NCBI GenBank assembly: GCA_013153715.1
Contig: JAADDW010000012.1
Location: 1-36,166 of the forward strand
Reading direction: 5' to 3'
DNA length: 36,166 bases
Source of the DNA: Campylobacterota bacterium
GTDB taxonomy: Bacteria; Campylobacterota; Campylobacteria; Campylobacterales; Nitratiruptoraceae
Below are positions 28,895 through 34,919 of the stretch, one piece after another. Positions within the stretch are counted from its first letter, which is position 1. Each line of letters begins with the position of its first letter. Under the pieces are notes generated by a model, which was not told the DNA's origin, did no database searches, and saw nothing but the letters and a program-made list of their open reading frames with translations. Position numbers and translations under genes: made by a program.

Positions 28895-30958
28895 ATGCGT
28901 CCACTCGTACTCCTTTTACTGCTGGCAGGATTGGCAGGGGCTCGGGATTCGACAGTTATCCTCCATGGGACAAGTGCCCAGGTGGGAAGGGAGAAGGTCA
29001 CCATAGATGGACCCTTTACCCTGGACTACGACAGGTTCCATCTGGAATCGGAGAGGGCCCTCTACGACCACAACAGCTCCCGCCTGCGGCTCCTGGGTTC
29101 CTTTGAAGCCATCGACCAGAACGGCTCCGTCCTCCATGCCCACTCTGGGACCTTCAAACTGGACAAGGAGAGTTTTAGGCTGGAACAGTTCTTCCTGGGC
29201 GAGAGCGGCTCCCAGCTCTGGATAGAGGGGCGAGAGGTAGAGGGGAACAGGACAAGGCTCGATCTCGCCTCCTCCTTTATCTCCAGCTGTCCCGTCCACT
29301 GCAGTGACTGGAAGATCTACTTTGGATCGGGAGACTACAACAGGGAGAACCACTGGGTCAATCTCTATAATATAGCCTTCTATGTCAGAGACATTCCGGT
29401 CTTCTACTTCCCCTATATCGGTTTCTCCACATTGAGAAAGCGGCACAGCGGCCTCCTCAGACCGACTGTGGGACTCTCCAATCGGGAGGGGTTGGTCTAT
29501 ATCCAGCCCATCTACTACGCCCCTACCAACTGGTGGGATCTGGAGTTTGATCCCCAGATTAGAACCAACAGGGGAGCGGGACTCTACACCACCTTCCGTT
29601 TTGTTGACTCCCCCCGATCCTACGGAGAGGTCCGGACAGGATATTTCCATGAGAAGAGCTCCTACCGCCGCGACCACAACATCAGAAACTCCAAACATTA
29701 CGGCCTGGAGCTCTACTACTGGAGGGAGAAGCTCCTCAGCGGAGATGATGGAGATGACGGAGTCTATCTAGATGCCAAGAGCTATAATGATGTGGACTAC
29801 TTCTATCTCCAGAAACATAGTGCCCTCTCCAACATTAGCTCCATCATCATCTCCCGACTCAACTACTTCTTTCAGAAAGAGCGAAACTACTTCGGGATCT
29901 ACGGCAAATACTTTAAGGACAATAGGAAGGTGGATAACGACGATACCCTCCAAATCCTTCCGGCCCTCCAATACCACCGCTATCTCCAATCGATCTTCGG
30001 CCACAACATCTCCTACCTCATCAACGCCGAGATCTACCACTACTATCGGAAGGAGGGCCTCAACGCCATCGAGTATCGGTTCGATATGCCCATCACCCTC
30101 TACACCTTCCTCTTCGACGACTGGCTCGGCTTCTCCTTCAGCGAGAATTTGAGCGCCCGCTACGCAGATTACAACTTTGTCGATAAACATCTGAACAAGA
30201 AGTGGAAGAACTACCACAGCTATCGGAACTCCCACCGGATCTCTCTCTACAGCGATCTCTTCAAAAACTACCCCTCCTTCTCCCACGCCCTCCATTTCGA
30301 TGCGACCCTCAATATCCCCAGTGTCGAACGGGAGGGAGGGGATAAGGCCCCCTTCATCGACGCTGTGAGCAACGAGAAGAGCCTCTACCTCACAATGAAG
30401 CAGTACTTCTACGGAAAAGATGGGGAGGAGCTCTTCTACCACCGTCTCACCCAACCCTTCCTCTACGACTACCCCCACAAGGCAAAGGAGTTAGAAAATG
30501 AGATAGGTTTCGAGCGGGGAGGGTTGAAGTTCAACCTCGATACCTTCTACTCCCATCAGAGGAGCAAGATTGTCAGCATCGTCACCCAGGCCAGCTACAA
30601 CGACGATCTCAACCATCTCTACCTCTCCCACTTCTACAGAGATAGGATCTACGGCCAGCGGGACTCCAACTACTTACGATTTGACTATAGTCGATTTTTA
30701 TCAAAAACATATAAACTATTTGCTACAATAGATTATGACTTTGTGGGAGAGCGGACGAAGAGCTGGAGTGTAGGCTGGGAGAAACGGTCTCGATGTTGGG
30801 CTTACACAGTCAGCTACAAGCAGGATGTCATTCCTGTCCTCACCTCAACGGGGAGCAACTCCTACAACAACAATGTCATCTATTTTCGAGTCGAGCTCTA
30901 CCCGTTGGGAGGAATTGCCCGCTCCCTCTCCCAGACCAACGAGCAAAGGACCTTTTAA
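28895..30958 (+). CDS. lptD: LPS-assembly protein LptD (outer-membrane translocon)
   Basis: LptD is the outer-membrane barrel that inserts lipopolysaccharide. The 687-residue protein has a signal peptide (PLVLLLLLAGLAGA), an OstA-like jellyroll domain (about 20-125: VTIDGPFTLDYDRFHLES, LLGSFEAIDQNGSVLHA), and a C-terminal barrel rich in alternating aromatic strands (SGLLRPTVGLSNREGLVYIQPIYY). C132 and C136 (SSCPVHCSDW) sit where disulfide-forming cysteines occur; one more Cys lies near residue 634. The ATG directly follows the purD stop and has no clear Shine-Dalgarno, so translation probably depends on purD. A purD-lptD pairing fits Campylobacterota. Confidence 0.94.
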   Translation: MRPLVLLLLLAGLAGARDSTVILHGTSAQVGREKVTIDGPFTLDYDRFHLESERALYDHNSSRLRLLGSFEAIDQNGSVLHAHSGTFKLDKESFRLEQFFLGESGSQLWIEGREVEGNRTRLDLASSFISSCPVHCSDWKIYFGSGDYNRENHWVNLYNIAFYVRDIPVFYFPYIGFSTLRKRHSGLLRPTVGLSNREGLVYIQPIYYAPTNWWDLEFDPQIRTNRGAGLYTTFRFVDSPRSYGEVRTGYFHEKSSYRRDHNIRNSKHYGLELYYWREKLLSGDDGDDGVYLDAKSYNDVDYFYLQKHSALSNISSIIISRLNYFFQKERNYFGIYGKYFKDNRKVDNDDTLQILPALQYHRYLQSIFGHNISYLINAEIYHYYRKEGLNAIEYRFDMPITLYTFLFDDWLGFSFSENLSARYADYNFVDKHLNKKWKNYHSYRNSHRISLYSDLFKNYPSFSHALHFDATLNIPSVEREGGDKAPFIDAVSNEKSLYLTMKQYFYGKDGEELFYHRLTQPFLYDYPHKAKELENEIGFERGGLKFNLDTFYSHQRSKIVSIVTQASYNDDLNHLYLSHFYRDRIYGQRDSNYLRFDYSRFLSKTYKLFATIDYDFVGERTKSWSVGWEKRSRCWAYTVSYKQDVIPVLTSTGSNSYNNNVIYFRVELYPLGGIARSLSQTNEQRTF

Positions 30959-30961
30959 ACT

Positions 30962-32428
30962 ATGAAGACTGAAGCCAAAGTGGGACTCTTCGTCGCCCTT
31001 GGTCTCCTCTTCCTCTTCCTCCTGAGCACCCAGGTCAACCGTTTTGCCAACATGGGGAAGAAGGGGTATGAGATCTATGCCCTCCTGGAGGATGCATCGG
31101 GGCTAGATAAAAATGCCAAAGTAAAAATCAAGGGGGTCGATGTCGGTTTCGTCAAGGATATAGGTCTGGAAGGGAGAAAGGTAAAGGCGGTTCTCTTCAT
31201 CTACGACGGAGTGAAGATACCGAAAGACTCCATAGTGACTCTCCAACAAGAGAGTCTCCTCGGAACCAAATATCTGGCCATCGAACCTGGGAAATCGGAG
31301 GAGTACCTGGGAGCTGGGGAGGCTTTGACCAAGGAGAAACTCTATGTCTCCTTTGACCAGACCAGCACGACCATCAATGAGGCGGCCCAGGAGTTCAAAG
31401 CCTTCATCTCCGAGCTGAGGGAGTCCATCAAAGGGGCCAGCGGCGAAGATCTGAAGAAGAGCGTCGAAAATCTCCAGAGAATTACAGAACATCTGCGGGA
31501 GCTCATTGAACAGAACAGGGAGAATATCGCCCAATCCATCGAGAATATCAAGGAGATGGGCCTCAAATTGAGTGAAGCGGGAGAGAAGTTTGGGCGGATG
31601 AGCGACAAATTCGCCCTCACAGCAGACAACATCAACCAGAGGCTCCCCTCCATTATGAGACGGATCGATGAGATCACCCTCTATCTCCGAGATGTGGGAA
31701 AAGATCTGAAGGTGAAACTGCCTGAGGTTCTCGACCGCTTCGCCAAGATCGAGGCGGAGTTGGAGGGGGTTGTCAAGGAGAATAGGAAACCTCTCCATAA
31801 GACAATTCTCTCGGCTAACAAATTTTTCCAGAAGGGGGGGGACTCTTTCCAGAAGCTGGACAAATTCTTTGAATCGATGGGAAAGAGCCAGATCGAGCTA
31901 GAGTTTAGCGGACAGTACATGAGTAAAGATGACTATGTGAAGAATATGGTCGCCCTCAACTACATCCCCTCCCCCAACAAGTACTATATGCTGGAGGTTG
32001 TCTCTCGGGATGACTACTCCCGCCTCGATGAGAAAGGAGACATTATCCTCCCCAGGAAACATGAAGATTCCCAATTCCTGGTCTCTGCCATGTATGGACG
32101 CCGTTACGGCGACCTTCGGTTCAGACTGGGACTCATCGAGAATACAGGAGGGGTCGGAGTTGACTACTTCTTCGACAACGATCGAGGGAAATTGAGGACC
32201 GACCTCTACGACTTCAACGCCGTCAATGATGTCCGTGGGAAGAGTGCCCATCTGGACATGACCCTCCGCTACAGGTTCCTCAAACATCTGGATACCTATA
32301 TCGGCGTTGACAATATCCTCAACAGCAAAGCGAGAAACCTCACCTTCGGTTTCGGCCTCAACTTCATAGATCAAGATATGAAGTACCTCCTCGGTACGGT
32401 AAGTGGGGCCGGAACCTATCTCAAATGA
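30962..32428 (+). CDS. MlaD/MCE-family lipid transport protein with barrel-like C-terminal domain
   Basis: The N-terminus has one membrane anchor (KVGLFVALGLLFLFLLS, 6-22) and one MCE domain (about 37-112: YALLEDASGLDKNAKVKIKGVDVG, then SLLGTKYLAIEPG). MCE proteins form hexameric rings carrying lipids between membranes. A long coiled-coil region (about 135-305) follows. The last 180 residues (311-488) are a series of about ten amphipathic beta strands, such as LRFRLGLIENTGGVGVDYFF and NLTFGFGLNF, which look like an outer-membrane barrel or a half barrel. Typical MlaD is about 160-300 residues, so the barrel-like tail (488 total) is unusual. It lies directly after lptD; no mlaE or mlaF is nearby. 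Confidence 0.85.
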   Translation: MKTEAKVGLFVALGLLFLFLLSTQVNRFANMGKKGYEIYALLEDASGLDKNAKVKIKGVDVGFVKDIGLEGRKVKAVLFIYDGVKIPKDSIVTLQQESLLGTKYLAIEPGKSEEYLGAGEALTKEKLYVSFDQTSTTINEAAQEFKAFISELRESIKGASGEDLKKSVENLQRITEHLRELIEQNRENIAQSIENIKEMGLKLSEAGEKFGRMSDKFALTADNINQRLPSIMRRIDEITLYLRDVGKDLKVKLPEVLDRFAKIEAELEGVVKENRKPLHKTILSANKFFQKGGDSFQKLDKFFESMGKSQIELEFSGQYMSKDDYVKNMVALNYIPSPNKYYMLEVVSRDDYSRLDEKGDIILPRKHEDSQFLVSAMYGRRYGDLRFRLGLIENTGGVGVDYFFDNDRGKLRTDLYDFNAVNDVRGKSAHLDMTLRYRFLKHLDTYIGVDNILNSKARNLTFGFGLNFIDQDMKYLLGTVSGAGTYLK

Positions 32429-32697
32429 TGGACGATCCCGTAAAGAGTATCCAGCAGGCTCTGGAGGTCTTGGGGCTCCCCCCCATGATCTCCCAGAAGG
32501 AGCTGAAGGAGAGGTATAGGGAGCTCTCCAAGAGATACCACCCCGATCGGGGAGGGAGCCATGAAGAGATGGCCCAGATCAACAGGGCCTACAAGATACT
32601 CCAGAGCTATATGGAGAATTACCGGTTCACTTTCAGCGACGAGGAGATTTTGAAGCAGTTCCCCCTGAAGGAGCACCAGGAGAGATTTAGATTTTGA
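32425..32697 (+). CDS. Short J-domain protein
   Basis: The 90-residue protein is essentially a J domain: ALEVLGLPPMISQKELKERYRELSKRYHPDRGG contains helices II and III with the HPD motif (H38-P-D). EEMAQINRAYKILQSYM forms the last helix, followed by a short tail. There is no G/F region or zinc domain, so it is not DnaJ itself; such proteins stimulate Hsp70 ATPase for a particular client. It overlaps the end of the MCE gene (ATGATG), so either of two adjacent ATGs may be used. Client unknown. Confidence 0.88.
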   Translation: MMDDPVKSIQQALEVLGLPPMISQKELKERYRELSKRYHPDRGGSHEEMAQINRAYKILQSYMENYRFTFSDEEILKQFPLKEHQERFRF

Positions 32698-32711: not shown

Positions 32712-34919
32712 ATGGTGTGCAGATTTGAGTTTGATATGAACAATCTCAAAGAGATCTTTGAGTTCGGAAAGGTTGCCCGCCAAGCCAACGGCTCCGTTAT
32801 GCTCAAGAGCGGTAAAACTGTTATGCTGGCGACGGTCTGTATCGATGAGGAGAACCCTGTAGAGGAGGATTTTCTCCCTCTCACCGTCCAGTACATCGAG
32901 AAGAGCTACGCCGCCGGAAAGATCCCTGGAGGATTTGTTAAGAGGGAGCAGAAACCCGGAGATTTCGAGACCCTCACCAGCCGCATCGTTGACAGGGCCC
33001 TCCGCCCCCTCTTCCCCAAGGGCTTCCTCTACCCCGTGGTCATCACCGTCCTCGTCCTCAGTGCCGATCCCCAGAGCGACCTCCAGGTCCTCGCCCTCAA
33101 TGCCGCCAGCGCCGCCCTCTATGTCTCGGACATCCCCATTAGGCGGGCTGTGGCCGGACTTCGGGTAGCCAAGGTCGATGGGGAGCTCATCTTCAACCCT
33201 ACACTCCAGGAGCTGAAAAACTCCACCCTCGACCTCTATCTGGCGGGAACCCGAGACGACCTCCTCATGATAGAGATGGCGGCCATAGGGACCTACAGAA
33301 CAGAAGTAGTCCCGACAGCAGTCGACCCCCTAACAGATCCTGCACTGACAGAGGAGGTCATCACAATCAAAGAGCCCAACGCCATGAAGGAGGAGGAGCT
33401 GGCCGAGATTATCTCCCAGGGAAAGGAGGCCATCAGAGTCGCCGCCGCAGAATATGAGAAGTACTTTATTGAAGTGGCCAAGGAGCAGAAGGAGCTCCCC
33501 CTCCAGAGTGAGGAGATCGACAAGGACCTCTGGGTCTATATCGATGAGTTCTACAAGGAGGAGATCGAAGAGGCGATCCAGGCCATGGCGAAGAGTGAGA
33601 GATTTGAGCTCCTCAGGGCCATCGCCAAGAAGATCGCCCAAGATGAGATAGCAGAGGAGCAGGGGTGGGATCTCGACACCATCTATAGAGTTGTGGACCG
33701 CTACAAGCGGCAGATCCTCCGCTCCATGATCTTGGAGAAGGGGGTCCGGGCCGACGGAAGGGGGCTCACCGACATACGCCCCATCTCCATCGAGACCAAT
33801 ATCCTCCCATCGGCCCACGGCTCCACACTCTTCACCAGGGGAGAGACCCAAGCCCTCGTGGTCTGTACCATTGGAGAGAAGACAGACGCCCAGATGTTCG
33901 AGATGCTGACCAGCAGGGGCCCCGAATATGAACATTTCATGGTCCACTACAACTTCCCCCCCTTCAGCGTGGGAGAGGCCCGACCGATCAGCGCCCCAGG
34001 GCGGCGGGAGTTGGGACATGGAAACCTGGCCCGGAGGGCTCTGGAACCTGTAGTCGATGTGACGGAGGATAAGACAATCCGTCTGGTCTCCGAAATACTG
34101 GAATCCAACGGCTCCTCCTCCATGGCCACGGTCTGCGGCGGCGCCCTCGCCATGAGGGCGGCAGATATAGAGTTGGCCGATCTCGTTGCAGGGGTCGCCA
34201 TGGGACTCATCGTCGAAGGGGATCGGTACGCCATTCTGACCGACATCATGGGGTTGGAAGACCACGATGGAGATATGGATTTCAAAGTGGCCGGAACCCA
34301 TGACGGCGTTACAGCGATGCAGATGGACATCAAATTGGGAGGAGTCCGGGAAGAGCTTTTGAGGGAGGCCCTCCAGCAGGCCAGAGATGCCCGCCTCAAG
34401 ATTTTGAAGATTATGAAGGAGGCCGAGGAGAAGATTGAGGTCAATGAGGAGAACCTCCCCACCTCCCGAACGGTGACTGTCCACCCCAGCAGAATTGTCG
34501 ACATCATCGGTCAAGCGGGCAAGACTATCAAGGAGATTATCGAGAAGTTTGAGGTGAGTATCGACATCGATAGGGAGCGAGGAAAGGTTCGGGTAACAGG
34601 GAAAAACAAGCCCAAGGTGATCGCCGCCTGCGACCATATCGAATCGATCGCCAAGAGACCCACCCCCCAACAGGTGAAATTTACTCCGGGCCAGATTGTA
34701 CGGGGGAGGGTGAAGCGGACCACAGCCTTTGGGGCCTTCGTCACCCTGCCTGGAGGGGTCGATGGACTCCTCCATATCTCCAAACTCGCCCAAGGCCATG
34801 TCCATCGGGTCGAAGATGTGGTAGGCGAGGGGGATGAGGTGGAGGTAGAGGTCCTCTCCCAACAGGGGCATAAGATAGAGCTCGCCCTCCGCCAGGTTGT
34901 CAAACGGAAACATGTTTAG
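32712..34919 (+). CDS. pnp: Polyribonucleotide nucleotidyltransferase (PNPase)
   Basis: PNPase degrades RNA phosphorolytically from the 3' end. The 735-residue protein has two RNase PH-like domains: the first with FVKREQKPGDFETLTSRIVDRALRPLF, the second with the catalytic stretch MGLEDHDGDMDFKVAGT and MQMDIK. A helical linker joins them. The KH domain (about 586-645) has the loop GQAGKTI at 600-606, and the S1 domain follows (about 658-730, GQIVRGRVKRTTAFGAFV). A Shine-Dalgarno AAAGGA is 10 bases before the ATG; a second possible start is the ATG at residue 9 (MNNLKEIFEFG). All expected domains are present. Confidence 0.96.
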   Translation: MVCRFEFDMNNLKEIFEFGKVARQANGSVMLKSGKTVMLATVCIDEENPVEEDFLPLTVQYIEKSYAAGKIPGGFVKREQKPGDFETLTSRIVDRALRPLFPKGFLYPVVITVLVLSADPQSDLQVLALNAASAALYVSDIPIRRAVAGLRVAKVDGELIFNPTLQELKNSTLDLYLAGTRDDLLMIEMAAIGTYRTEVVPTAVDPLTDPALTEEVITIKEPNAMKEEELAEIISQGKEAIRVAAAEYEKYFIEVAKEQKELPLQSEEIDKDLWVYIDEFYKEEIEEAIQAMAKSERFELLRAIAKKIAQDEIAEEQGWDLDTIYRVVDRYKRQILRSMILEKGVRADGRGLTDIRPISIETNILPSAHGSTLFTRGETQALVVCTIGEKTDAQMFEMLTSRGPEYEHFMVHYNFPPFSVGEARPISAPGRRELGHGNLARRALEPVVDVTEDKTIRLVSEILESNGSSSMATVCGGALAMRAADIELADLVAGVAMGLIVEGDRYAILTDIMGLEDHDGDMDFKVAGTHDGVTAMQMDIKLGGVREELLREALQQARDARLKILKIMKEAEEKIEVNEENLPTSRTVTVHPSRIVDIIGQAGKTIKEIIEKFEVSIDIDRERGKVRVTGKNKPKVIAACDHIESIAKRPTPQQVKFTPGQIVRGRVKRTTAFGAFVTLPGGVDGLLHISKLAQGHVHRVEDVVGEGDEVEVEVLSQQGHKIELALRQVVKRKHV

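Follow-up and report, generated by a model that had tools for sequence, protein, structure and literature searches.

It is an open question by which route phospholipids pass through the periplasm and which arrangement is the more ancient, the shuttle formed by MlaC and MlaA or a bridge between the two membranes. It is raised by a gene of a Nitratiruptor-like Campylobacterota bacterium of hydrothermal-vent type (family Nitratiruptoraceae, assembly GCA_013153715.1), which lies behind lptD in a 36,166-nucleotide stretch of DNA, the whole of which is referred to below as the window. An initial annotation had suggested, from the letters of this stretch, that the MCE protein encoded by the gene might link both membranes as one polypeptide, without separate MlaC or MlaA proteins, by means of an inner-membrane anchor, one MCE domain, a long helical stretch and a barrel-like C-terminal tail of 180 residues.

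These parts were recovered in the same order, namely an N-terminal anchor, a single MlaD/MCE domain, about 175 helical residues (modelled with low confidence) and a ten-stranded all-beta tail (Table 1). Residues 6-25 of the anchor are hydrophobic in the sequence, and the helix is extended at both ends in the model. The MCE domain scored 71.6 bits against the Pfam family MlaD (PF02470; curated cut-off 25.1), and the entire protein 93 bits against the NCBIfam MlaD equivalog, for which the cut-off is 135. Assignment to PqiB or LetB was rejected, as the protein has one MCE domain and not several in tandem. Searches with the tail alone yielded no match in Pfam or NCBIfam, and comparison of the tail profile with the sequences of the PDB retrieved nothing relevant, the best hit being to an antifreeze protein (E 0.26). 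When genome contigs were searched with the protein sequence alone, three close relatives were found, none of them from Veillonella; the closest named relative, from a Nitratiruptor sp. MAG, is 80% identical across the whole protein. Since the architecture is kept throughout 32 aligned homologues (40-82% identity in the tail) and the tail profile matched 46 of the 397 genomes of the phylum (E below 1e-66), the 488-aa reading frame with its beta tail is, judging from sequence conservation, not a chance one. Each strong match formed the terminal part of an open frame ~450-525 aa long, and one further, weak match was in a frame of 699 aa. No relative was detected among viral contigs using the full-length profile, and the plasmid search returned matches to the MCE region and the helix, none to the tail.

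Table 1. Features of the mlaD gene and its neighbourhood, in positions of the window.
Feature	Position	Strand	Evidence
lptD, directly upstream, conserved neighbour	28895..30958	+	NCBIfam LptD E 5e-23, below curated cut-off
Barrel-bearing MlaD (MCE) protein, 488 aa	30962..32428	+	ORF, Pfam, homologue alignment
N-terminal inner-membrane anchor helix, residues 3-29	30968..31048	+	hydrophobic stretch; helix in model
Single MCE domain, residues 34-110	31061..31291	+	Pfam MlaD E 6.4e-20; 75.4 bits here
Long helical region, residues 131-304	31352..31873	+	low-confidence model; weak Pfam match to Mce4_CUP1
Ten-stranded beta-barrel domain (predicted), residues 310-469	31889..32368	+	model, fold search, strand statistics
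Last strand TFGFGLNF, BAM beta-signal-like	32342..32365	+	homologue alignment
Short C-terminal helix past the barrel, residues 474-482, low confidence	32381..32407	+	model
Small DnaJ-domain protein, 90 aa, overlapping downstream neighbour	32425..32697	+	Pfam DnaJ E 5e-12
pnp (polynucleotide phosphorylase, presumed), closing the conserved block on the right	32712..34919	+	translation; homologous neighbour in other loci

The tail was modelled by itself as a single chain with AlphaFold2, using an alignment of 32 sequences, and the resulting model consisted of ten strands (mean pLDDT 86.8, pTM 0.77). The helical region had a pLDDT below 40 in the full-length model and, as this part is unreliable, the fold search was confined to the tail. 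The all-beta, barrel-like character assigned to the tail therefore holds, its extent less so: of the 178 residues of the tail, the barrel proper takes up about 160 (310-469), and a short, poorly predicted helix follows it. Among solved structures the best fold in the PDB was that of a designed 10-strand transmembrane barrel, TMB10_163 (8uzl; Foldseek E 8e-4, TM 0.54/0.68, rmsd 3.8), which was the sole match under E 1e-3 and was followed in the ranking by OmpG, OprF, porins and OmpA. The same search against viral proteins led to uncharacterised phage proteins and phage barrels of outer-membrane type, a resemblance of fold only.

The model might alternatively be read as a soluble periplasmic barrel, similar to nitrobindin or the lipocalins, which would take lipid from the MCE conduit and never enter the outer membrane. 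Two soluble 10-strand barrels, nitrobindin (2a13) and Rv0813, were indeed matched by Foldseek with probability 1.00, but they ranked lower and superposed less well (TM ~0.46, rmsd 7-8) than the transmembrane design. Of the criteria available here, the best discriminator between a membrane and a soluble barrel is the comparison of conservation on the two faces of the strands. The strands alternate in hydrophobicity between in and out (2.06 against a mean of 0.96 in shuffled strands, p 5e-5), as had been noted from the sequence. Variability within the tail is higher on the hydrophobic face than on the polar one (entropy 1.77 vs 1.39 bits, p 0.04), whereas in the MCE domain of the same protein the relation is reversed (1.32 vs 1.94 bits, p 0.03). 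Most of the invariant residues of the tail (Arg388, Gly390 and Asp401 among them) are on the polar, charged face, while the hydrophobic face drifts, which is the opposite of what is seen in a soluble core. This inverted conservation is strong in strands 5, 6, 7 and 9 and absent in strands 1, 2 and 8, where the polar face is variable, as a soluble barrel would have it; strand 3 is barely amphipathic. A soluble receiver would in addition still need MlaA, which the genomes with the tail lack (see below). A soluble location is therefore improbable in our judgement, and structure prediction of the monomer gave no soluble fold for residues 311-488 but ten strands whose physico-chemical character is that of a transmembrane barrel.

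We thus predict from the model that the tail inserts into the outer membrane. The beta-signal recognised by BAM has the consensus polar-x-Gly-x-x-hydrophobic-x-aromatic. In the last strand of the tail Gly463, Gly465 and Phe468 are invariant in the alignment, and the polar position is not conserved. An even number of strands would place both ends of the barrel in the periplasm, as the anchoring of the protein in the inner membrane demands.

The plan of the protein is not new, as a publication of 2023 had already described it in Veillonella and in numerous further diderms. MlaD of Veillonella parvula consists of an anchor, an MCE domain, a helix and a C-terminal 10-strand barrel, and operates in a cell without MlaA and MlaC; its isolated barrel was recovered in the outer-membrane fraction and its anchor-MCE part in the inner-membrane fraction (Grasekamp et al. 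2023, PMC10665443). In the same study the barrel was inferred in 103 MlaD proteins across Bacteria, an anticorrelation of the barrel with MlaA and MlaC was reported, and the three-part system was argued to be ancestral (PMC10665443). The protein described here has the same inner-membrane helix, single MCE domain, long helix and (predicted) C-terminal 10-strand barrel, and its genome has MlaE and a candidate MlaF but neither MlaA nor MlaC. A helical extension past the barrel occurs in some homologues of the Veillonella type and is short and of low confidence here. The proteins differ in length (488 vs 419 aa), and the present gene is located behind lptD, unlinked to mlaE and mlaF; the published phylogeny, by contrast, used clustered MlaDE(F) only (PMC10665443). 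By architecture and gene content the protein accordingly fits the transenvelope MlaD of the Veillonella type in all features tested except clustering, a trait of the set behind that phylogeny more than a strict part of the definition. With MlaD of the six-component Mla system of Escherichia coli it shares the MCE domain, the inner-membrane anchor and the MlaE and MlaF partners; the E. coli protein, however, is only 183 aa long, lacks both the barrel and the long helix, and depends on MlaC and MlaA as further components. The Mpc system of Brucella (mpcEFDA, PMC12436622) and PqiABC likewise have a needle-like MCE protein that is supposed to bridge the periplasm with no need of MlaC, but they reach the outer membrane via a separate PqiC-like lipoprotein instead of a fused barrel.

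In order to see which partners accompany the tail, 249 Campylobacterota genomes were surveyed. The tail was present in 30 genomes belonging to 15 genera, MlaC in 133 and MlaA in 139. Neither MlaC nor MlaA was found in any of the 30 genomes with the tail, and there was no overlap in any of the 15 genera; both are also missing from the genome of the window, which is 98% complete. The idea of one polypeptide dispensing with MlaC and MlaA fits this gene content in Campylobacterota, although with a predicted barrel and after its publication for other bacteria. When relatives are treated as independent, the p of these zero overlaps is at most ~1e-11 if genomes are counted and at most 5e-5 if genera are. 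The genomes are not independent, and the pattern could simply reflect common ancestry, with no functional relation between the shuttle and the tail protein. On a tree of 47 genomes built from PurD, LptD and the N-terminus of Pnp, 7 changes are needed for the tail and 6 for MlaC (counts are unpolarised), and supported branches alone force at least 6. Along these branches tail and MlaC went in opposite directions in ~4.7 of 6 (about 5) independent pairs and in the same direction in none; the corresponding sign test gave a median p of just 0.06 (range 0.03-0.125). Given the repeated changes, the complete lack of overlap and the same anticorrelation across Bacteria (PMC10665443), we regard mere common descent as an unlikely source of the pattern.

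Taken as a whole, the data make it likely that the protein is the MlaD of a minimal MlaEFD transporter, a transenvelope protein with an outer-membrane barrel that replaces MlaC and MlaA. The N-terminal helix would hold it to the MlaE-MlaF ABC transporter of the inner membrane, six MCE domains would form a ring, as in solved MCE proteins, and the long helices may pack together as a hydrophobic conduit that crosses the periplasm. An alpha helix rises by 1.5 angstrom per residue, so that ~174 residues, if fully helical, would reach ~26 nm, which suffices to cross a periplasm of ordinary width. MlaE-MlaF would drive lipid through the MCE ring and the helical conduit, and the 10-stranded barrel, predicted to insert in the outer membrane through BAM, would fix the far end of the bridge, so that neither MlaC as shuttle nor MlaA as outer-membrane lipoprotein would be required. 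Because a phospholipid does not fit through a barrel of ten strands, as was pointed out for Veillonella, the barrel is probably an anchor or docking device and not a lipid pore; the same authors considered six such barrels around a six-fold conduit sterically odd (PMC10665443). Phospholipid most likely moves from the outer to the inner membrane, if the direction is that of the Mla systems studied so far.

The gene begins 3 nt past the end of lptD, as close behind it as first described, and its stop codon is overlapped by the DnaJ-domain ORF (ATGA). The order purD, lptD, tail gene, pnp was found in every tail locus read, with lptD upstream, often within ~15 nt, and with small genes that vary. 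In tail-less genomes of several families (20 of 20) the order of lptD and pnp is kept without an MCE gene between them, and lptD is followed by the DnaJ-domain gene, a phosphoribosyltransferase-like gene or pnp. The constant place behind lptD could be explained if the barrel docked to LptD or aided LPS export rather than phospholipid transport, but this is the least probable of the alternatives, as lptD keeps the same neighbours in all 20 genomes without the gene, and so does not need it, and as MlaA and MlaC are what varies with the gene. The suggestion that LPS and phospholipid traffic share one operon is true of the gene order with lptD only, because the ABC subunits MlaE and MlaF are encoded elsewhere in the genome.

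As regards the locus itself, a phosphoribosyltransferase-like gene (~220 aa) replaces or adjoins the small DnaJ-domain gene in other genomes. In the window purD and lptD abut (28894/28895), while in many relatives a gene of ~150 aa (RDD-like) is situated between them, which seems to have been lost in Nitratiruptor.

The fixed place behind lptD and the lack of co-occurrence with MlaA and MlaC in Campylobacterota are what is new here. The tree of the tail gene has 18 of 24 splits in common with that of PurD, LptD and Pnp, and the families tested hold together. A single ancestral position followed by several losses would be simpler than repeated insertion at one point. There is about an even chance that in Campylobacterota the bridge was ancestral behind lptD and was several times exchanged for the MlaA-MlaC shuttle, with one solution per lineage. 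The pattern agrees with the claim of 2023 that the bridge came first and, if the scenario is true, Campylobacterota would be a natural test bed for the change from bridge to shuttle: close relatives with either solution, the same locus being filled or empty, make a direct comparison possible.

MlaE is encoded in each of the 30 surveyed genomes with the tail. The genome of the window has one, of 297 aa, on contig 12 among unrelated neighbours; it consists of the MlaE domain only, for which reason a STAS-fused MlaE was rejected as the partner, and similar short MlaE proteins are found in the other tail genomes examined. The best candidate for MlaF, on contig 38, adjoins ftsZ and has MlaF as its top NCBIfam model, below the cut-off. 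The genes for MlaD, MlaE and MlaF are thus not clustered but lie on three different contigs with differing neighbours. In another family it is mlaE that is beside ftsZ, and the two adjacencies (L089 3472-5373; L071 4501-6393; L066 5225-7113; L072 5662-7556) may both go back to a single ancient cluster.

At least one genome with the tail has, as a second system, an operon (L077 2712-6293) in which a STAS-fused MlaE and MlaF are combined with a short MlaD and with a PqiC-like lipoprotein (ABC_trans_aux), similar in make-up to Mpc of Brucella (PMC12436622). Several other tail genomes also contain a second gene for MlaE and a second, shorter gene for an MCE protein. On contig 37 of the genome of the window (L040 3785-7065) there is also a complete-looking pqi operon, which includes a small gene, lipoprotein-like and unmatched in Pfam, a gene for PqiB with three MCE domains (540 aa) and the two halves of PqiA as separate ORFs.
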